64,000 bases of DNA from Haloarcula sp. CBA1129 (lineage in GTDB: Archaea > Halobacteriota > Halobacteria > Halobacteriales > Haloarculaceae): the NCBI RefSeq assembly GCF_008729015.1, contig NZ_RKSM01000001.1, positions 124,001 through 188,000 of the forward strand, read 5' to 3'. Below are positions 31,724 through 38,682 of this stretch, in pieces (positions within the stretch are counted from its first letter, which is position 1; each line of letters opens with the position of its first letter). The position numbers and the translations under genes were made by a program. The notes beneath the pieces were generated by a model. The model was not told the DNA's origin. It saw only the letters and a list, made by a program, of their open reading frames with translations, and did no database searches.

Positions 31724-31794
31724 TCAGGCGATCTCCTGTAAGGTGAGCGCCGTATCGGTCTGTAGCCACGCGAGCGGGTTCTCGGCGTCGTAGA
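31724..31794 (-). pseudogene. Displaced original 3' end of the host gene now at 38491-38682
   Basis: On the minus strand this fragment still encodes YDAENPLAWLQTDTALTL followed by Gln-Glu-Ile-Ala and a TGA stop, identical in protein sequence to the C-terminus of the gene at 38491-38682. It was cut off from its 5' part by insertion of the element. The last codons differ from the element-supplied copy only at synonymous positions (ATC GCC TGA here, ATT GCA TAA there). Confidence 0.85.
31731..31794. repeat. attL: left 64-bp direct repeat of the integrated element
   Basis: These 64 bases are identical to 38498-38561, offset by exactly 6767 bases. The repeat lies within the coding 3' end of a host gene and 32 bases from the integrase start, as expected for a tyrosine-recombinase attachment site. 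Confidence 0.92.
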
Positions 31795-31825: not shown

Positions 31826-32848
31826 ATGAAAGCAAACACCAATCCGACCGACCTGCAAGCTATCACCCCCGTAGAGGCATTACGACTGTATCTCGAAAGC
31901 AAGGTAGACGAATGGGCTACAGCGACTAAAGAACTACAACAGTTCCATTTGAATGAATTTGTTGAGTGGTTGGCTGAAGAAGATATAGACGATATGCGGA
32001 ATATCTCTGCCCGCACCGTTCACAGATTCCGTTTGAACATTAAAGGTGATATAGCACAATCTACACTCTCACAGAGGGTTAGTTCGGTGCGACGGTTCTT
32101 ACAGTTCTGTACGACGATAGACGCTGTAAGCCCATCCGTGCCTGAGCGAGTAGAGATTCCGAACCGAGATACGGAGGCACGAACTGAAACACTTGAAGCC
32201 GACCATGCAGAAGCTGCATTGGATTACTTGGAGCGGTTCGCATATGCCAGCCGTGAGCATGCTTTGCTGGCACTGTGCTGGCACACAGGCATTCGGACGG
32301 GAACCTTAGTCGCCTTGGATGTAGACGATGTAGAACCCGCTCAGAACCGCCTACGAATTCGACATCGGCCCGAGAGTGATACACCGCTGAAAAATGGGAC
32401 AACTGCCGAACGGTATGTAGCACTATCCGAAGATGTAGCGGAGGTGTTAGAAGACTACATCAATCACAAGCGCAAAGACATTGAAGACGACTACGGGAGA
32501 ATGCCATTATTCGCTACTGAAAACGGTCGGGCACCAGTGAAGACACTACGGCGGTGGTTTCAGGCTACTACCCGACCGTGTATCTACGGTACTGAGTGCC
32601 CGCATGGTCGTGATAAAAACGAGTGTGCGGCAGCACAATCAATGTCTAATGCGAGTGACTGCCCATCAAGTGTGAGCGGGCATCCTATCCGACGTGGTGC
32701 TATCACGCACTTCCTACGCAAAGACGTGCCTGAGAAAGTCGTCTCAGATAGGATGAACGTCTCGACTGATGTGCTGGAACAACATTACGACCGTCGTACT
32801 GAAGACGAGAAGGCGGAACAAAGGCGCGAATACTTAGACGGCCTTTAG
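31826..32848 (+). CDS. int: Tyrosine recombinase/integrase of the element
   Basis: 340 residues. The N-terminal 110 residues form a SAM-like core-binding domain (ALRLYLESKVDEWATATKEL). The catalytic domain has Arg157 in WHTGIRTGTLVAL, His286 and Arg289 in GHPIRRGAITHFL and the nucleophile Tyr321 in VLEQHYDRR. A cysteine and histidine cluster (CIYGTECPHGRDKNECAAA) before the HxxR box resembles zinc-binding inserts of haloarchaeal phage integrases. It should catalyse exchange at the 64-bp att repeats. The start is 32 bases from attL. The stop codon lies in the first base-paired segment of repeat module B1, so the mRNA end and the structure are contiguous. Confidence 0.92.
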   Translation: MKANTNPTDLQAITPVEALRLYLESKVDEWATATKELQQFHLNEFVEWLAEEDIDDMRNISARTVHRFRLNIKGDIAQSTLSQRVSSVRRFLQFCTTIDAVSPSVPERVEIPNRDTEARTETLEADHAEAALDYLERFAYASREHALLALCWHTGIRTGTLVALDVDDVEPAQNRLRIRHRPESDTPLKNGTTAERYVALSEDVAEVLEDYINHKRKDIEDDYGRMPLFATENGRAPVKTLRRWFQATTRPCIYGTECPHGRDKNECAAAQSMSNASDCPSSVSGHPIRRGAITHFLRKDVPEKVVSDRMNVSTDVLEQHYDRRTEDEKAEQRREYLDGL

Positions 32849-32950
32849 GGCGGAACCCTATTCGGTTCCGTCTCGTGCGAATCGATGGATTCGCACTCTA
32901 TGGTGCGGCTTACGCAAGCCGCACAACCTATCGGCGAGTGCGATAGCACG
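32843..32950 (+). repeat. Structured repeat module B, copy 1 (plus orientation)
   Basis: Four stem-loops in a row: CGGAACC 32851-32857 with GGTTCCG 32864-32870; GTGCGAATC 32875-32883 with GATTCGCAC 32888-32896; GTGCGGCTT 32903-32911 with AAGCCGCAC 32916-32924; CTATCG 32928-32933 with CGATAG 32941-32946. The same series occurs inverted at 33639-33748, and partial copies lie at 38091-38137 and 38197-38243. Stems differ between copies by paired substitutions. It begins at the integrase stop codon. Confidence 0.85.
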
Positions 32951-32970
32951 AAGCGTGTAGACGCACCACA

Positions 32971-33019
32971 CAGCACCGCTGGGGAGAGCCAAAGACCGCC
33001 CACTCCCCCAACTACCGCC
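32971..33019 (+). repeat. Repeat module C, copy 1
   Basis: The block contains ACCGCTG, then GAGAGCCAAAGACCG, then CCCAACTACCGCC. Related blocks occur at 33331-33381, and inverted at 35051-35098 and 38053-38090. It directly follows module B1, and copy 4 follows B4 in the same relative order, so B and C form one composite unit. Confidence 0.7.
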
Positions 33020-33053
33020 CCCGCACGCCACCCCACTTTCGTGCGCACACACA

Positions 33054-33076
33054 ACGCGTCTAATCTGAATTGTAGC
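33054..33076 (+). repeat. Direct repeat, left copy
   Basis: ACGCGTCTAATC followed by GAATTGT recurs at 38342-38364 with two mismatches in 23 bases. One copy lies near each end of the element. Confidence 0.6.
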
Positions 33077-33086
33077 GAGTGGCTGA

Positions 33087-33293
33087 ATAGGGTGTTTCTA
33101 TACCCCTATATTTGCTGTAGAACGTTCCTATCGCAGATGTAACGTACAGAGACGGAATATTGTACGTAGCAACCTGCTACCACGAACATACCACCAGTAG
33201 CGACGTTCGGGTATTGCTGTAGAGCCGTGCAACCCGTTTGCACCACTCCAACCCCCACAGTCTATGGGGTGCAAACAGTACTCCACGGGGTTG
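33087..33293. repeat. Chain of unique hairpins between C1 and C2
   Basis: At least four inverted repeats are visible: ATAGGG 33087-33092 with CCCTAT 33104-33109; ACGTACA 33142-33148 with TGTACGT 33161-33167; GTAGCA 33166-33171 with TGCTAC 33175-33180; and a long nested one, CAACCC 33230-33235 with GGGTTG 33288-33293 around GTTTGCACC 33236-33244 with GGTGCAAAC 33268-33276. No convincing gene lies in 32849-33970. Confidence 0.65.
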
Positions 33294-33330
33294 TTCGGAT
33301 AGCACGAAACCTGCAGTACGAATGTATAAG

Positions 33331-33381
33331 CCGCACAACTGCTACCGCTGTGGAGAGTAGAGAACCGCCCCAACTACCGCC
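33331..33381 (+). repeat. Repeat module C, copy 2
   Basis: It reads GCTACCGCTG, then GGAGAG and AACCGCCCCAACTACCGCC, matching copy 1 with some changes. Module A1 follows about 40 bases later. The inverted pair C3-A3 has the same order, so C2-A1 and A3-C3 are the two arms of a large inverted repeat. Confidence 0.65.
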
Positions 33382-33422
33382 ACCACAATTCTCTGTGATT
33401 CAGCGGTGGTGGTGGGTGGTGG

Positions 33423-33620
33423 GGTGGTAGTGCTTCTATATTACTTAAGTAGGTAATCACAGATACATACATAGAGGGAGTGCGGTGGCGGTGACTACTG
33501 TTGCTAAGTGGCTGTGCGGTGACTCAGTGCGGTTCTGAAGGGAGTTTTTGTGGGTTTCATCAGCGTGCCAACAATTCTATGCTCGTACTGTAGATGAGCA
33601 TGATAACAAACCACACGCTG
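33423..33620 (+). repeat. Repeat module A, copy 1: left arm of a ~200-bp inverted repeat
   Basis: It shares TATATTACTTAAGT, GGTAATCACAGATACATAC, GGAGTGCGGTGGCGGTGAC and GTGCGGTTCTGAAGGGA with the inverted copy 34831-35028. It ends in a hairpin closed by CAGCGT 33561-33566 and ACGCTG 33615-33620, with inner stem ATGCTC 33579-33584 and GAGCAT 33596-33601. Confidence 0.85.
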
Positions 33621-33638
33621 ATTGAATACGCTACGATT

Positions 33639-33748
33639 CGTGCTATCGCACTCAGCGATAGGTTGTGCGGCTTGCGTAAGCCGCACCATAGAGTGCGAAT
33701 ACTACGTCTTCGCACGAGACGAAGCCGAATATGGCTTCGCCCTAAAGG
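33639..33748 (-). repeat. Structured repeat module B, copy 2 (minus orientation)
   Basis: It is the inverted counterpart of 32843-32950. Stems on the plus strand are CGAAGCC 33720-33726 with GGCTTCG 33733-33739; GTGCGAA 33693-33699 with TTCGCAC 33709-33715; GTGCGGCTT 33665-33673 with AAGCCGCAC 33678-33686; CTATCG 33643-33648 with CGATAG 33656-33661. The first stem differs from copy 1 by compensating pairs. It follows A1 after about 20 bases. Confidence 0.85.
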
Positions 33749-33872
33749 TTTTAGATTAGTGTTGGTGCTACGGTCGTTGCATTCAAGTAGCTGTAGAATG
33801 TATACCTACACACACCATATCCCACCGCGGTGGGGCGGATTACTTACGTTTCTTGTTGCTGGGTGGTAACTA

Positions 33873-33969
33873 AGACCGTGTTCTAAAGGACGGTTTTGTG
33901 GATTCCATCAGCGTGTGGTTTGTTACTCACACTCATACCAACTAATGAGTATGGGTAATATCTACGCTG
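33873..33969 (+). repeat. Module A, copy 2 (partial, hairpin part only)
   Basis: CAGCGT 33909-33914 and ACGCTG 33964-33969 close a hairpin whose inner arms 33924-33936 and 33945-33957 pair at 12 of 13 positions, counting one G-T pair. TTCTAAAGGACGG and TTGTGGATTCCAT upstream match copies 1 and 3. It abuts the stop codon of the LAGLIDADG-like gene at 33971. Confidence 0.75.
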
Positions 33970-33970
33970 G

Positions 33971-34699
33971 TTATATCGGTTCAGCTACAGTTTTGAGAGG
34001 TAGGTCTATTTCATCCAGCAGATTCATCGCATCGTAGTGTGGAATACAGAGAACTTCATCTGAGTAGTGATAGCGGTGTGTGTGGCCATCAGATGCATAG
34101 CCGTCGCCATCGTAGGAAACTGTATCGTAACCTCGCTCAGCCAACATATCATCAAACCTATCACTATCGACGTCCCAGCCACGTAGGTCGATATGTAGAC
34201 TCCCAAATAGTTTTCCTACAAAGGTGCCAGCAGTGATGACTGTGGCCTTCAAACAGTCGTTGCTGAGAGATTCCACGGACGTGCTACCTTCGGTATAATT
34301 CTCGAATTCGGGATGTGGAATCGTAGAAAGGGCATATACGTCGTTGCAATCTTCAGCAGTAACATCGCCACCGAGACGGTCGTTTAATCTCTCCGAAATA
34401 GTTTCAGAACACTGATATAATCGCACGGGATTGCTCACCCAGCCGAGTAAGTCGGAATATGCCTGTAAAAGCTCTTTATCAGTGGTAGTAACGTCGATAG
34501 AGGGATATGCTGCCCTATCAGATATTGTGACTCCACGTAGTATCAAATACTCTATAACTCCCAACTGTAGCTCGCTCAATTCGGGCCGATGTGTTGGGGA
34601 GTGGGAAAAGTGGGTTGCAAGACGTTTGTATTTGTTACCGCATTCTGGACACTTCGACCTATCTTCGGCTGTTATAAATGTACTTGAACTAATCACCAT
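33971..34699 (-). CDS. LAGLIDADG-endonuclease-like protein with N-terminal zinc finger
   Basis: 242 residues from ATG 34699; another ATG five codons upstream is possible. A TATA-like GATAAAATTAG lies about 30 bases upstream of 34699. The start holds a CxxC-H-H zinc finger (CPECGNKYKRLATHFSHSPTH). Residues 45-110 match the haloarchaeal homing-endonuclease-like family in pattern: ILRGVTISDRAAYPSIDVTT, then DKELLQAYSDLLGW, then NDVYALSTIPHPEFENY. In active members the glycine is followed by Asp (GDA or GDG); here it is GVT, so this half-site may be catalytically dead. The gene is enclosed by inverted copies of module A. The family call rests on motif memory only. Confidence 0.6.
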   Translation of the reverse strand: MVISSSTFITAEDRSKCPECGNKYKRLATHFSHSPTHRPELSELQLGVIEYLILRGVTISDRAAYPSIDVTTTDKELLQAYSDLLGWVSNPVRLYQCSETISERLNDRLGGDVTAEDCNDVYALSTIPHPEFENYTEGSTSVESLSNDCLKATVITAGTFVGKLFGSLHIDLRGWDVDSDRFDDMLAERGYDTVSYDGDGYASDGHTHRYHYSDEVLCIPHYDAMNLLDEIDLPLKTVAEPI

Positions 34700-34830
34700 T
34701 AGATTCCACCACAATTGGGGGCTAATTTTATCTTTTCAGTTGTATTTCCACCCATCTGACCGATTCCATCCATGTCCCACGCTATTGGTGGGAATCTTAT
34801 TTTGAGTCTGAACATTATTGAATAACCCAC

Positions 34831-35028
34831 CAGCGTAGATATCATCCACACTCATCCACAGCACGAGTATGAGTAACAGCCACACGCTGATGGAACCACA
34901 GCAAAATCCCTTCAGAACCGCACTGAGTAACCGCCTCAGCAATTCCACAGCCTTAGTCACCGCCACCGCACTCCCACTATGTATGTATCTGTGATTACCC
35001 ACTTAAGTAATATACAAACCTACCACGC
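34831..35028 (-). repeat. Repeat module A, copy 3: right arm of the inverted repeat
   Basis: It is the inverted counterpart of 33423-33620, with long identical blocks. The terminal hairpin has closing stem CAGCGT 34831-34836 and ACGCTG 34884-34889. The inner stem pairs CATACTCGT with ATGAGTGTG (minus strand), including G-T pairs. The two arms enclose module B2, hairpin A2 and the LAGLIDADG-like gene. Confidence 0.85.
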
Positions 35029-35050
35029 CTCACTATTGTTCCGTACAGCA

Positions 35051-35098
35051 GCAGTTGGGGGGTGGTTCTTTGGCTTCCCGCAGCGGTAGCAGTAGCTG
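35051..35098 (-). repeat. Repeat module C, copy 3 (minus orientation)
   Basis: On the minus strand it reads CTGCTACCGCTGCGGGAAG, then CCAAAGAACCACC, matching copies 1, 2 and 4. It lies next to A3 in mirror image to C2-A1, which extends the inverted repeat to nearly 300 bases per arm. Confidence 0.65.
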
Positions 35099-35141
35099 TA
35101 ACCGTCTACACGGCTTCTCAAGCGGTCGGTATTCTATTCCA

Positions 35142-35327
35142 ATGGACACCACTCGAAATTGGATAAGATTGCACACAGCGTATTCTGTGGCTTCTGAGAG
35201 TGATTGTAGGACGGTGGTAGGACATCAGCCATATAGAAATCCAGCAATAGATTGGCTCCATAACCTGTCAGTACGATATAAACGAGAGGCGTGGCACAGA
35301 AGTGCTACGTTTTTGGAGTTGATTTAA
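35142..35327 (+). CDS. Possible small protein at the start of the element's gene train
   Basis: 61 residues from ATG 35142 (MDTTRNWIRLHTAYSVASES) to TAA 35327, with the next ATG one base later at 35329. The frame is plausible and the tight spacing fits the train. However, composition is unremarkable, no motif is seen and a TATA-like GATATAAAC lies inside it at 35275-35283, so it may not be a gene. Confidence 0.35.
   Translation: MDTTRNWIRLHTAYSVASESDCRTVVGHQPYRNPAIDWLHNLSVRYKREAWHRSATFLELI
35275..35283 (+). promoter_or_regulatory. TATA-like box before the small-gene train
   Basis: GATATAAAC lies about 50 bases before ATG 35329. A start site about 25 bases downstream would give a short leader containing GGAG a few bases upstream of the ATG. 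Confidence 0.4.
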
Positions 35328-35328
35328 A

Positions 35329-35481
35329 ATGGCACGAAACAAGAAAATTCGAGTATCACAGAGCGAACTAAGTACGCTGAAGGCCGCACGAGATAGCGAA
35401 GACGAATCGCTACCACTCGGCTATGTAGCTGCTGAGGGGGCTAAGCAACTGCTGGCCGATGATTCGGAGGTCGGATTCTGA
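35329..35481 (+). CDS. Small element protein, 50 residues
   Basis: It reads MARNKKIRVSQSELSTLKAA, then an acidic linker and a helix ending GAKQLLADDSEVGF. The basic beta-strand start followed by a helix resembles ribbon-helix-helix-type small proteins common on haloarchaeal viruses and plasmids. It is headed by GGAG and its stop overlaps the next start (TGATG). A DNA-binding regulator is possible but unproven. Confidence 0.68.
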   Translation: MARNKKIRVSQSELSTLKAARDSEDESLPLGYVAAEGAKQLLADDSEVGF

Positions 35482-35660
35482 TGTCCGACGAAACATGCGC
35501 CGAAGATGAATGTACCATCATTCTCCCTGAATTTCCTGATGAGAGCGGCTATTATTATTGCGAAGAGCATTACCCCGAACCGAACGATGGTACATTCAGC
35601 CACATTCCCGACGAGTTTGCCGATTACCGTGAGGAACGGAGGGAAATGTACGATGAGTGA
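35481..35660 (+). CDS. Small acidic element protein, 59 residues
   Basis: It starts at ATG 35481, overlapping the preceding stop. The sequence MSDETCAEDECTIILPEFPD, with a later CEEHYPE, has three cysteines and a histidine that could bind zinc. It is strongly acidic. The stop overlaps the following ATG at 35653 by eight bases. Function unknown. Confidence 0.62.
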   Translation: MSDETCAEDECTIILPEFPDESGYYYCEEHYPEPNDGTFSHIPDEFADYREERREMYDE

Positions 35661-35940
35661 GATATTCAGTACCGTGTTTTCTCCCTCTGTGGGTTCTACA
35701 GTAGAGTTACCGAGCGAGTTTGGTCGGAAAGATTGTGGTCACTTTGGTGGAGGTCAGCAAGGCGATGGCACCTTTAAAATCAGTGTTGTTGGCCGTGGAG
35801 AGAAGTCTGAATACGTCGTTCTGAGCACTGATGTAGGCCGCACAGAGGTAGCGGACAGGGCGGAAATTCTGGGCACTGATGTGGCCGATGAGAAACTCTA
35901 CTACGCTGTGCCGCGGTCGGCCTACGGAGGTGGCGAGTAA
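35653..35940 (+). CDS. Small element protein, 95 residues
   Basis: From ATG 35653 to TAA 35940, overlapping genes on both sides (TAATG at the 3' end). The protein is beta-rich, with FSPSVGSTVELPSEFGRKDC, FKISVVGRGEKSEYVVLSTD and EKLYYAVPRSAYGGGE. The tight chain of overlaps argues that it is translated. I recognise no family. Confidence 0.65.
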   Translation: MSEIFSTVFSPSVGSTVELPSEFGRKDCGHFGGGQQGDGTFKISVVGRGEKSEYVVLSTDVGRTEVADRAEILGTDVADEKLYYAVPRSAYGGGE

Positions 35941-36626
35941 TGTTGAATAAAGAACAACTCGAAGCGGCACGAGAAAGAAATGGGGAACATGCTGATGAAT
36001 GTGCTGATGAAGCCGATGCAGCATTTGAACGAGATTATCCCGCTGTTGGATTCTCGAATGGTGACCCACTCTTAAATCGGGATTACAACAAATATCCGAG
36101 CGGTGATGATATTCTCTCACCAGATGCCAGCGGGGTTCTGGAAACTCTCGCAGAACACTCGCTTATCGGGAGCGTCCGTGATATCTCTGATGAATTGAGA
36201 GCCGATGTAACGGTTGTGAGCAAGGCGCTTGAACTGCATGATGTAGACCGCTTAGAATCAGTTGAAGACGATGCACAGCCATCTGAGAGCGAATTAGAGC
36301 TACCTGATGGCACGGTCGTGGATACGGAACAGTTCCGTACCCCCATCTACACAGATTCTCGACTACTCGAATATCTCTATGTAGATTGTGGCTACTCTAT
36401 TGCCGAGATTCAGAAGTTTTTGGAATCTGAACGGAACTACGGGCGTGATAGTTCTAAGCCGCGCTGGACGGTCAAAACATCAGATATTCGAGAGGAGCTA
36501 AAGCGTGTTGGACTTCTCGAAGGGAATGTAGACGACGGTGAGAGAGATGATATCCGTCTTGGTGGGCCTACACTCAACGAATCTGAAACTCGGGGCCTTA
36601 CCGTGAATAGTTCGGATTTTGAATAG
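35940..36626 (+). CDS. Element protein with two winged-helix-like segments
   Basis: 228 residues. The acidic helical N-terminus (EQLEAARERNGEHADECADE) is followed by an HTH-like unit near residues 77-105 (SLIGSVRDISDELRADVTVV). A second lies near 135-185 (YLYVDCGYSIAEIQKFLESE, then SDIREELKRVGLLEG). Each looks like the recognition part of a winged helix. It could bind element DNA as a regulator or replication factor. No known initiator motif (Orc/Cdc6, RepH, HUH) is seen. It overlaps the preceding stop by one base (TAATG). Confidence 0.68.
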   Translation: MLNKEQLEAARERNGEHADECADEADAAFERDYPAVGFSNGDPLLNRDYNKYPSGDDILSPDASGVLETLAEHSLIGSVRDISDELRADVTVVSKALELHDVDRLESVEDDAQPSESELELPDGTVVDTEQFRTPIYTDSRLLEYLYVDCGYSIAEIQKFLESERNYGRDSSKPRWTVKTSDIREELKRVGLLEGNVDDGERDDIRLGGPTLNESETRGLTVNSSDFE

Positions 36627-36661
36627 TTAGCAAACTGAAACAGACAGCAGTAATTATCAAT

Positions 36662-37387
36662 ATGACTACAACAGAAGCGATAGGCAGCAGCAGCAATATT
36701 CAGTGGAATAGTAGCAGCGATAACCTTAGCAGAGAGATAGGCGATACGGCACATGACCCTAAAACCGTAGTGCGAGAGCGTGACGCTTTTGAGCTATCTG
36801 AGTTTGGTGGTGAGCGAGAGTACGACGGGGATAGCAGTAACGGTAGCAGATTTGATAGGTCCGATATTCCAAAAGGCCAGCAAGACCGCTGGAGACGCCT
36901 CTGGCTGATAAATGAGGGAGCCAGCCCATCGTATGAGGACGGTGATGGGCTTGAGTCTCAGATTTCTAATCCATCTGATACTACTGGACGTAGAGCGCAC
37001 CAAGATAAGCTGGAAACTGTAGAGCGTATCGGTGCTAAATTCGAGGTACCTTCAGCTACAATAAATGAGGCACGAACCTTAGCCAGCGGAGTTGATGGGA
37101 CTGGACATAGCTTAGAAAAGATAGCAATCGGAGCTATCTTAATCGCCAATGATAGGCACATCGCTGAGAAAGTGCGACGTTCTGATGTAGATAGCGCCGT
37201 CGCAGATGTGTTTGAGGGCAGTTTAAGCGATGCAGAAACAAATACCGCATTAAACTTACTCGAAGAAACTGAGACGCTACCTAAACTGTTTCAGCGACGG
37301 CTGAAGCGTAGAGATGATGTAGTCGAATACCTCAAAGATTGTGACTTTAGTATTGTTGATGCAATGGGAGTGTTCTATGATGACTGA
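36662..37387 (+). CDS. Element protein with a possible cyclin-like helical domain
   Basis: 241 residues. The first 110 are low-complexity and Ser/Asp-rich. Residues 115-205 are helical (KLETVERIGAKFEVPSATIN, EKIAIGAILIANDRHIAEKV, FEGSLSDAETNTALNLLEE). This alternation resembles the cyclin-box repeat of TFIIB and of the haloarchaeal RpoEps-like proteins found on mobile elements. The C-terminal YLKDCDFSIVDAMGVFYDD is unassigned. A role as a transcription-factor mimic is a guess from pattern alone. The 3' end overlaps the next gene by 11 bases. Confidence 0.62.
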   Translation: MTTTEAIGSSSNIQWNSSSDNLSREIGDTAHDPKTVVRERDAFELSEFGGEREYDGDSSNGSRFDRSDIPKGQQDRWRRLWLINEGASPSYEDGDGLESQISNPSDTTGRRAHQDKLETVERIGAKFEVPSATINEARTLASGVDGTGHSLEKIAIGAILIANDRHIAEKVRRSDVDSAVADVFEGSLSDAETNTALNLLEETETLPKLFQRRLKRRDDVVEYLKDCDFSIVDAMGVFYDD

Positions 37388-37676
37388 ATATCCCTACGAT
37401 ATTTCCGTCGATAATGAAGAAGTTTCCAGACTCCTATCTGAGAAACAAAGGCCGTGGTGGGATGCAAGAGTATTAGATTGCCTACATAACGAATTACATC
37501 TTAGCTTAGCTGAAATAGGTCAGTTGTTTAATATAAGCCGCCAATCTGTTCGGCATGCTGCGAAGGAACTTGATGTATCTATAGAGAGGAAAAAGAGTGG
37601 TTACTCGAAGATTATTGATAAGGAACAGAAACGTCTCAGCGAGTATGAACCCACAGGCATGGCAAAATTCATGTAG
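37377..37676 (+). CDS. Element HTH protein, 99 residues
   Basis: The start is ATGATG at 37377/37380, inside the end of the upstream gene. Residues 35-75 form a clear helix-turn-helix: LHNELHLSLAEIGQLFNISR, then QSVRHAAKELDVSIERK, in the style of sigma-70 region 4 or homeodomain-like HTHs. The C-terminus is basic. It is probably a DNA-binding regulator of the element and is the last gene of the train. Confidence 0.72.
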   Translation: MMTEYPYDISVDNEEVSRLLSEKQRPWWDARVLDCLHNELHLSLAEIGQLFNISRQSVRHAAKELDVSIERKKSGYSKIIDKEQKRLSEYEPTGMAKFM

Positions 37677-37697
37677 ACGAATCTATCAGCGATAAAA

Positions 37698-37834
37698 CGT
37701 CGTGGCCGAAAATAGTAGCCACAACGAGAAACAGACAACAGTGGCGGGTGACTAACCCCGCCACATGGACAACACTTCAAGCTTCCACAGGTAGCAGCAA
37801 GCTAATTGAAGTTGAAGCGGAATCCCACCGCTTC
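37698..37834. repeat. Four consecutive hairpins after the small-gene train
   Basis: CGT-GTGGC 37698-37706 pairs with GCCAC-ACG 37718-37726 (one mismatch). GTGGCGGG 37741-37748 pairs with CCCGCCAC 37757-37764. ACTTCAAGCTT 37774-37784 pairs with AAGC 37799-37802 and TTGAAGT 37806-37812. GAAGCGG 37814-37820 pairs with CCGCTTC 37828-37834. They start 22 bases after the last stop codon, so they may end the transcript. No T-run follows the strongest stem. Confidence 0.7.
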
Positions 37835-37855
37835 ACTACTGTTTTTGAGCTTATG

Positions 37856-37865
37856 GTATAAAAGG
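37856..37865. promoter_or_regulatory. TATA-like box beside the hairpin array
   Basis: GTATAAAAGG on the plus strand, or CCTTTTATAC on the minus strand. Read leftward it could drive transcription of the hairpin array 37698-37834. Read rightward it faces the palindrome at 37894 and the module B4 region. Direction cannot be settled from sequence. Confidence 0.4.
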
Positions 37866-37893
37866 GGCTTAAAAAGGCCAGTCTATTGGATTA

Positions 37894-37912
37894 TTTTCTA
37901 TCTGATAGAAAA
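37894..37912. promoter_or_regulatory. Perfect 19-bp palindrome, probable operator
   Basis: TTTTCTATC and GATAGAAAA flank a single central T in an AT-rich stretch. Several HTH proteins are encoded by the adjacent train, so an operator or part of a replication origin is plausible. The whole 37677-38490 gap holds only hairpins, this palindrome and module copies; I see no gene in it. Confidence 0.6.
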
Positions 37913-38052
37913 AATTAAGTTTAAATTCTGTTATTGATTTTGCTATATATGCGTGGTAATAATACTACGTTTCTCTTGCCCCAATGCACCCCGCACCCCG
38001 ATAAAAAAGATGTTACCTACTTGCCCAATTTCGACGGGCGGGTTGAAGGGGT

Positions 38053-38090
38053 ATGGGGCAGTCTTTGGCTCTCTCTCAGCGGTCGCTGTT
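38053..38090 (-). repeat. Repeat module C, copy 4 (minus orientation)
   Basis: On the minus strand it reads GCGACCGCTGAGAGAGAG followed by CCAAAGACTGCCCC, matching copy 1. It directly follows module B4, mirroring the B1-C1 order at the other end of the element. Confidence 0.65.
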
Positions 38091-38137
38091 GTGCGGATAA
38101 CTCCGCACCATTGAGTGCGAATACTACGTCTTCGCAC
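38091..38137 (-). repeat. Structured repeat module B, copy 4 (two-hairpin form, minus)
   Basis: GTGCGGA 38091-38097 pairs with TCCGCAC 38102-38108, and GTGCGAA 38115-38121 pairs with TTCGCAC 38131-38137. The second hairpin is identical, loop included, to that of copy 2. The first keeps the outer GTGCGG/CCGCAC but has a different inner stem that still pairs. Confidence 0.8.
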
Positions 38138-38196
38138 GAAGTAGTGGTTCTGATACCGACTTGGATCCTACATCCCCATAAGATGAGAACGACTTT

Positions 38197-38243
38197 GTGC
38201 GAATTATCGAATTCGCACTCTTTAGGGCGACTGCTTCAGTCGC
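38197..38243 (+). repeat. Structured repeat module B, copy 3 (two-hairpin form, plus)
   Basis: GTGCGAATT 38197-38205 pairs with AATTCGCAC 38210-38218. GCGACTG 38227-38233 pairs with CAGTCGC 38237-38243. The linker CTCTTTAGGGCG contains the CTTTAGGGCG that also precedes the first stem in copies 1 and 2. The last pair of the first stem is T-A where copy 1 has C-G. Confidence 0.8.
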
Positions 38244-38490: not shown

Positions 38491-38682
38491 TTATGCAATC
38501 TCCTGTAAGGTGAGCGCCGTATCGGTCTGTAGCCACGCGAGCGGGTTCTCGGCGTCGTAGAACACTGTCCCCTCCTCGGTTTCGTAGGTCTCGGTCGTCT
38601 GGATGGCGTCCGGGAGCGCCGGCTCCGACCGCAGTTCTTCGGACCTATCCGCCTCGCCGTGGGGGGATGCGTGGTGCGACAT
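38491..38682 (-). CDS. Small haloarchaeal protein (DUF7331-like), 3' end supplied by the element
   Basis: 63 residues. The N-terminus is polar (MSHHASPHGEADRSEE). The C-terminal half, ETEEGTVFYDAENPLAWLQT, is the conserved part of a haloarchaeal family I believe is DUF7331. The gene runs from host DNA through attR and ends on TAA inside the element, so the insertion did not truncate the protein. The displaced original 3' end is at 31724-31794. It is divergent from the polymerase gene, with about 107 bases between starts. Function unknown. Confidence 0.8.
   Translation of the reverse strand: MSHHASPHGEADRSEELRSEPALPDAIQTTETYETEEGTVFYDAENPLAWLQTDTALTLQEIA
38498..38561. repeat. attR: right 64-bp direct repeat of the integrated element
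   Basis: Identical to 31731-31794. The repeat encodes most of the C-terminal 23 residues of the host protein on the minus strand. The last codons before the stop lie just outside it, in element DNA, and keep the same amino acids. Confidence 0.92.

Follow-up and report, generated by a model that had tools for sequence, protein, structure and literature searches.

We lean towards reading the four hairpin copies in the 64,000-nt stretch of DNA analysed here (the window) as miniature mobile double-hairpin elements that occur only in one family of small, plasmid-like integrative elements of haloarchaea. This reading is favoured because the units are present or absent at non-homologous sites even in close relatives, lie in both orientations, in one instance interrupt a coding sequence, and are lacking in most elements of the family. 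It was observed directly that the units fold, keep their pairing through changes of the arms, differ in site, orientation and number, can split a gene without disturbing its frame and, among the genomes searched, are confined to the family. The basic unit would be about 45-55 nt long and would consist of a hairpin (about 7 bp with a 4-nt loop), a short linker (CATTGA, CATAGA or TTGAGA) and a second hairpin, copies 1 and 2 being interpretable as four-hairpin composites. Such units would make clean insertions at new sites in both orientations, including in-frame insertions within genes, and would stay palindromic as their arms drift or get swapped.

The host element and the pairing of its hairpin copies

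The copies sit in a 6.8-kb integrative element with a tyrosine integrase and 67-nt att repeats, the repeats duplicating the 3' terminus of a short open reading frame on the minus strand (Table 1). The same element, flanked by the same 67-nt repeat pair at the same attachment site, is found as sister element L010 in genome G198, which belongs to the same genus as the window. The gene set comprises orf50-59-95-228-241-99 and a LAGLIDADG-fold protein, orf247m, with structural matches (Foldseek) to I-WcaI (1.3e-4) and I-SceI (5.6e-4); the integrase stop codon falls within the start of the copy-1 unit, and a genome search for orf228 gave matches in 21 of 392 genomes of the order. The L015 homologue of orf241 keeps a TFIIB zinc ribbon (PF08271, 1e-6, just under the gathering score), which the TFB-like protein encoded by the window element (36662-37387) does not have. 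Several further repeats were seen in the element. A 149-nt inverted repeat (85%; 33421-33567 and 34883-35029) flanks the LAGLIDADG-fold gene, larger imperfect hairpins CATCAGCGTG/CACGCTGATG lie at about 33547-33626, 33895-33975 and 34829-34900, and the motif ACCGCTGNGGAGAGCCAAAGACCGCCC, with variants, occurs at 32975-33021, 33338-33375, 35053-35087 (-) and 38048-38083 (-), its copies lying near both element ends in mirror orientation and resembling subterminal inverted repeats.

Table 1. Features of the integrative element and its hairpin copies (positions in the window)
Feature	Position	Strand	Remarks
attL-side 67-nt direct repeat	31728..31794	.	99% identical to 38495-38561
Tyrosine integrase gene	31826..32848	+	Pfam Phage_integrase 2e-12; L010 protein 96% identical
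Copy 1	32843..32954	+	112-nt insertion, four hairpins plus short fifth
Copy 2	33640..33752	-	113-nt insertion, inverted relative of copy 1, four hairpins
orf247m, zinc-finger + LAGLIDADG-fold protein	33974..34714	-	AlphaFold model pLDDT 81
orf50, conserved small protein of element family	35329..35481	+	tblastn: L010, L015, L036, others
orf59, conserved small protein	35481..35660	+	tblastn in family elements
orf95, conserved small protein	35653..35940	+	tblastn in family elements
orf228, helical HTH-like protein, element-family marker	35940..36626	+	model pLDDT 74
orf241, TFB-like family	36662..37387	+	basis: L015 homologue
orf99, HTH protein	37377..37676	+	weak Pfam HTH matches
Copy 4	38091..38137	-	two hairpins; + strand GTGCGGA/TCCGCAC, CATTGA, GTGCGAA/TTCGCAC
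Copy 3	38197..38243	+	two-hairpin unit; orthologue in L010
attR-side 67-nt direct repeat	38495..38561	.	pair of attL-side repeat

An earlier note on this DNA had reported four copies of a hairpin series, and their places and strands are borne out here. The pattern GTGCGAAT-N(2-12)-TTCGCAC occurs at four places only in the 64-kb window (six matches over both strands) and in 0 of 100 shuffled sequences, and as single-stranded DNA the copies fold more stably than shuffles (z = -6.5 for copy 1, and -5.3, -4.8 and -4.6). Copies 3 and 4 have two hairpins, as in the core that the note describes for all four, whereas copies 1 and 2 have four hairpins and match each other at 89% over 116 nt in inverted orientation. 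The order of modules also differs, the lead CTTTAGGGCG standing before hairpin 1 in copies 1 and 2 and before the second hairpin in copy 3. Both hairpins contain GTGCG half-sites; hairpins are 17-23 nt long, and loop lengths also vary between copies. The individual stems were read correctly, namely the first-stem difference GGAACC/GGTTCC versus GAAGCC/GGCTTC, the second-hairpin stems (GCGGCTT/AAGCCGC, GCGGA/TCCGC and GCGACTG/CAGTCGC), and the end of stem one in C-G in copy 1 and T-A in copy 3, with the stem two pairs longer in both.

Across the window and G198 copies, 96.7% of the cells of 16 core pairs are paired and five pairs have changed on both sides, a covariation equalled in none of 500 shuffles. 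The chance of the observed compensation, per comparison, is 2e-5 for copy 4 and the L010 unit described below, 5e-4 for the units of the more distant elements L041 and L068, and 2.5e-3 for copy 1 and copy 2. The suggestion that a folded strand is under constraint is thus well supported by compensating changes. Homologues with substitutions that do not preserve pairing, which the earlier note had said would speak against it, were seen in one case: copy 3 and its G198 orthologue differ by two substitutions, both pair-breaking. No G-U pair was present among the 90 cells, and compensation by Watson-Crick pairs without G-U steps fits DNA-level processes better than RNA selection.

Occupied and empty sites across the element family

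Five insertion cases are available, three of them from a single element pair (window and L010). Copy 1 accounts for 112 nt in the window versus 0 in L010, and copy 2 for 113 nt versus 0, with contiguous flanks in L010 at both sites; L010 has in turn a two-hairpin unit of 53 nt, placed 17 nt beyond, where the window has 0. The ends of copy 1 do not correspond to those of copy 2, and neither copy shows an evident target duplication. The L010 unit and copy 4 have in common the lead, the linker TCAATG and the entire second hairpin; their first hairpins differ at nine positions, of which eight form four compensated pairs and one is unpaired, so that arms have been replaced next to about 30 identical flanking nucleotides, and the loop core CGTAG is common to both despite the changed arms. 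Copies 3 and 4 are present in both elements. Copy 4 lies within a 68-nt block (38077-38144) that is identical in L010 amid diverged flanks, an identity between two species that could reflect function. A further hairpin pair of L010 (7003-7047) falls in a poorly aligned stretch.

About two dozen genomes of the Halobacteriales were found to contain relatives of the element. A circular 4,491-bp plasmid of Halomicrobium urmianum (NZ_CP084094.1; L036/L042) is among these relatives and is a free form of the element family; it encodes homologues of orf50, orf95 and orf228, with no integrase and no recognised Rep gene. Its hairpins matched the window-type model weakly, and it was left uncounted as a unit carrier. 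A related element in G316 has a gene for an Mrr-type restriction endonuclease after its integrase (L039:9974-10711). A noncoding motif, CTAATCNGRATTNTGGC, with variants, is conserved in several family elements, at 33060 and 38348 in the window and at L014:10199 and 10229 (in tandem), L036:1551, L037:5297, L039:5435 and L041:9406, and is possibly a protein-binding site or part of an origin.

When the family elements were scanned for two 7-bp hairpins separated by a short linker, one unit design was obtained besides the window type, in L041 (genome G411) and L068 (G079). It has two 7-bp hairpins with 4-nt loops and the 6-nt linker TTGAGA, and the two examples, set in unrelated contexts, share 87% identity across 55 nt and are distinguished by three loop changes and two compensated pair swaps (C-G/G-C). 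The L041 unit follows the LAGLIDADG gene and has no counterpart in L072, a close relative, whereas the 48-nt L068 unit lies in frame within the orf99 homologue, to which it adds 16 codons with the reading frame intact, and is missing from L066. Both empty sites (L066 and L072) read GGTCCTC, and both filled sites have CCTC at each unit edge. Window-type and L041-type units have their geometry in common, not their stem sequence, and a common descent of the two types would be conjectural.

The distribution was examined with two covariance models, R1 for the window-type unit and R2 for the L041/L068-type unit. R1 was run against the genus (32 genomes) and the order (293 genomes), and its strong matches were confined to the window genome (G000) and G198. 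R2 gave one strong match in the 293 order genomes, in G079, and when six selected genomes were searched at the DNA level, G411 and G079 each yielded one copy of the L041/L068-type unit. In 46 further genomes R2 matched weakly (23-31 bits); these matches were put down to chance, the eight alignments viewed having gaps, mismatched pairs or a lost hairpin, as were short BLAST matches in G338, G294 and G386, which fell within or next to ordinary genes and were accompanied by neither element genes nor a second hairpin. The genomes searched (a limited sample, with filters that can lose weak matches) yielded no unit beyond the element family, and in this the units behave unlike dispersed repeats of the host genome. 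An Rfam covariance-model search gave no match except a spurious miRNA, and scans of viral contigs and a phage collection gave none, in agreement with the earlier statement that no named motif of this kind was known.

Possible modes of movement and other readings

The units may move as folded single strands, through an HUH-like nuclease or through template switching during replication of the element, the latter being the main alternative agent to enzyme-driven movement; palindromy may be maintained because the fold is recognised or copied back (fold-back correction). We assign no mobilising agent, since two unit-bearing genomes, G411 and G079, have no match to Y1_Tnp (PF01797), of which G000 has a fragment only and G198 three. 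This, the differing ends of copies 1 and 2, the identical block around copy 4 and the unlike stems of the two unit types weigh against the mobile-unit reading. LAGLIDADG homing was considered as the mover and rejected: orf247m has the fold, but homologues are also encoded in the unit-less elements L066 and L072.

The earlier note had offered two functions for the hairpins, a structured RNA and hairpins used in replication or transfer, and neither is supported. It is unlikely, on our estimate, that the units serve the excised element in cis as sites for replication or transfer, recognised by their structure, for example a rolling-circle origin at which a palindrome is bound and a hairpin nicked. 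In the haloarchaeal virus SNJ2 (Rep-Arvir), the rolling-circle origin is proposed to consist of an inverted repeat and a hairpin after it; a double mutation that preserves the stem keeps activity, and breaks of stem or loop abolish it (PMC13107129). A cis function has some chance here, given that SNJ2 is a haloarchaeal element reliant on a hairpin, the stem of which is changeable as long as it is paired (PMC13107129). The likeness includes an inverted repeat with a hairpin in a haloarchaeal element and structure outweighing stem sequence in SNJ2 (PMC13107129), and the identical block around copy 4 and the CGTAG loop core retained in the L010 unit also speak for such a site. However, the eight element proteins gave no Pfam match to a known Rep domain, including the SNJ2-type DUF7845, close relatives (L066 and L072) are without units, four copies in alternating orientation would be odd for a single origin, and one unit lies within a gene; presence and absence argue against an essential role.

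A structured RNA family with several copies per element, acting as a regulatory or antisense RNA or as a 3'-UTR structure, is improbable. The covarying stems and conserved linkers would suit it, as would the placement of copies 1 and 2, which follow the integrase and orf247m genes in sense orientation, but the units are present or absent at non-homologous sites in inconstant position and on either strand, their insertion polymorphism is clean, Rfam holds no match, and the lack of G-U pairs would be unusual under RNA-pairing selection alone. Slightly less probable again is that template switching or fold-back repair maintains the palindromes, the fold itself being under no selection, and that replication slippage spreads them: Watson-Crick-only changes, arms replaced beside identical flanks and inexact unit ends are all in its favour, whereas the two mismatches in orthologous copy 3 went uncorrected and the TTGAGA linker and GGTCCTC target are conserved between L041 and L068. 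Recurrent GTGCG half-sites and an element-encoded HTH protein could also suggest double-stranded dyad operators for a dimeric DNA-binding protein, a reading we regard as very improbable because hairpin length and loop lengths vary, breaking helical phase, and the half-sites are replaced outright in the L010 unit.

To our knowledge, no double-hairpin mobile units have been described in archaea. Going beyond the mobile-unit reading itself, we propose only tentatively, and as less likely than not, an archaeal class of mobile double-hairpin units set by geometry and not by sequence, which would inhabit one plasmid family only, move as folded strands through an element-linked activity and diversify their arms under a pairing constraint. 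Whole arms change together, linkers and target are fixed, and the few elements concerned are small, clonable and provided with empty-site controls; they lend themselves to tests of how palindromic elements defined by structure alone move and why palindromy persists.

Comparison with known systems

MITEs of the IS200/IS605 type have a hairpin at each end and no terminal inverted repeats, and insert after a fixed tetranucleotide. CCTC at the L041 and L068 sites is reminiscent of them, and CCTC edges with hairpin pairs resemble IS200/IS605 or REP chemistry; on the other hand, CCTC is unseen at copies 1 and 2, ends are constant only for the L041/L068 pair, and no parent IS or Y1 transposase is linked. 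For a MITE of a DDE transposon, the CCTC flanks of two units might represent a 4-nt duplication, but no terminal inverted repeats were seen. Rickettsia palindromic elements are palindromic units inserted in frame within coding sequence; the in-frame insertion is alike, whereas the present units are much shorter, have two hairpins and live in an unrelated host.

The best likeness is with mitochondrial double-hairpin elements, followed by REP/BIME units. In REP, BIME and REPIN systems with TnpA-REP (RAYT), paired short hairpins act as folded single strands, and a stem swap had a moderate effect in one system (PMC8266576). The present units differ in being few, with none found in the host chromosome (only element copies in G000), in having no GTAG at the foot of any hairpin, and in the lack of a Y1 transposase match in two unit-bearing genomes. 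The DHE/RHE of fungal and sponge mitochondrial DNA are, in the account of Paquin et al. 2000 given in PMC2800124, two tandem hairpins lying between or within genes, which differ in number between close relatives, carry complementary substitutions and show no clear flanking duplication. The haloarchaeal units likewise consist of two tandem hairpins with a short linker and are present or absent at homologous sites in five cases; being archaeal and not mitochondrial, GC-rich, tied to one element family and associated with a possible GGTCCTC target, they would be of the same kind as these elements, not of the same family.
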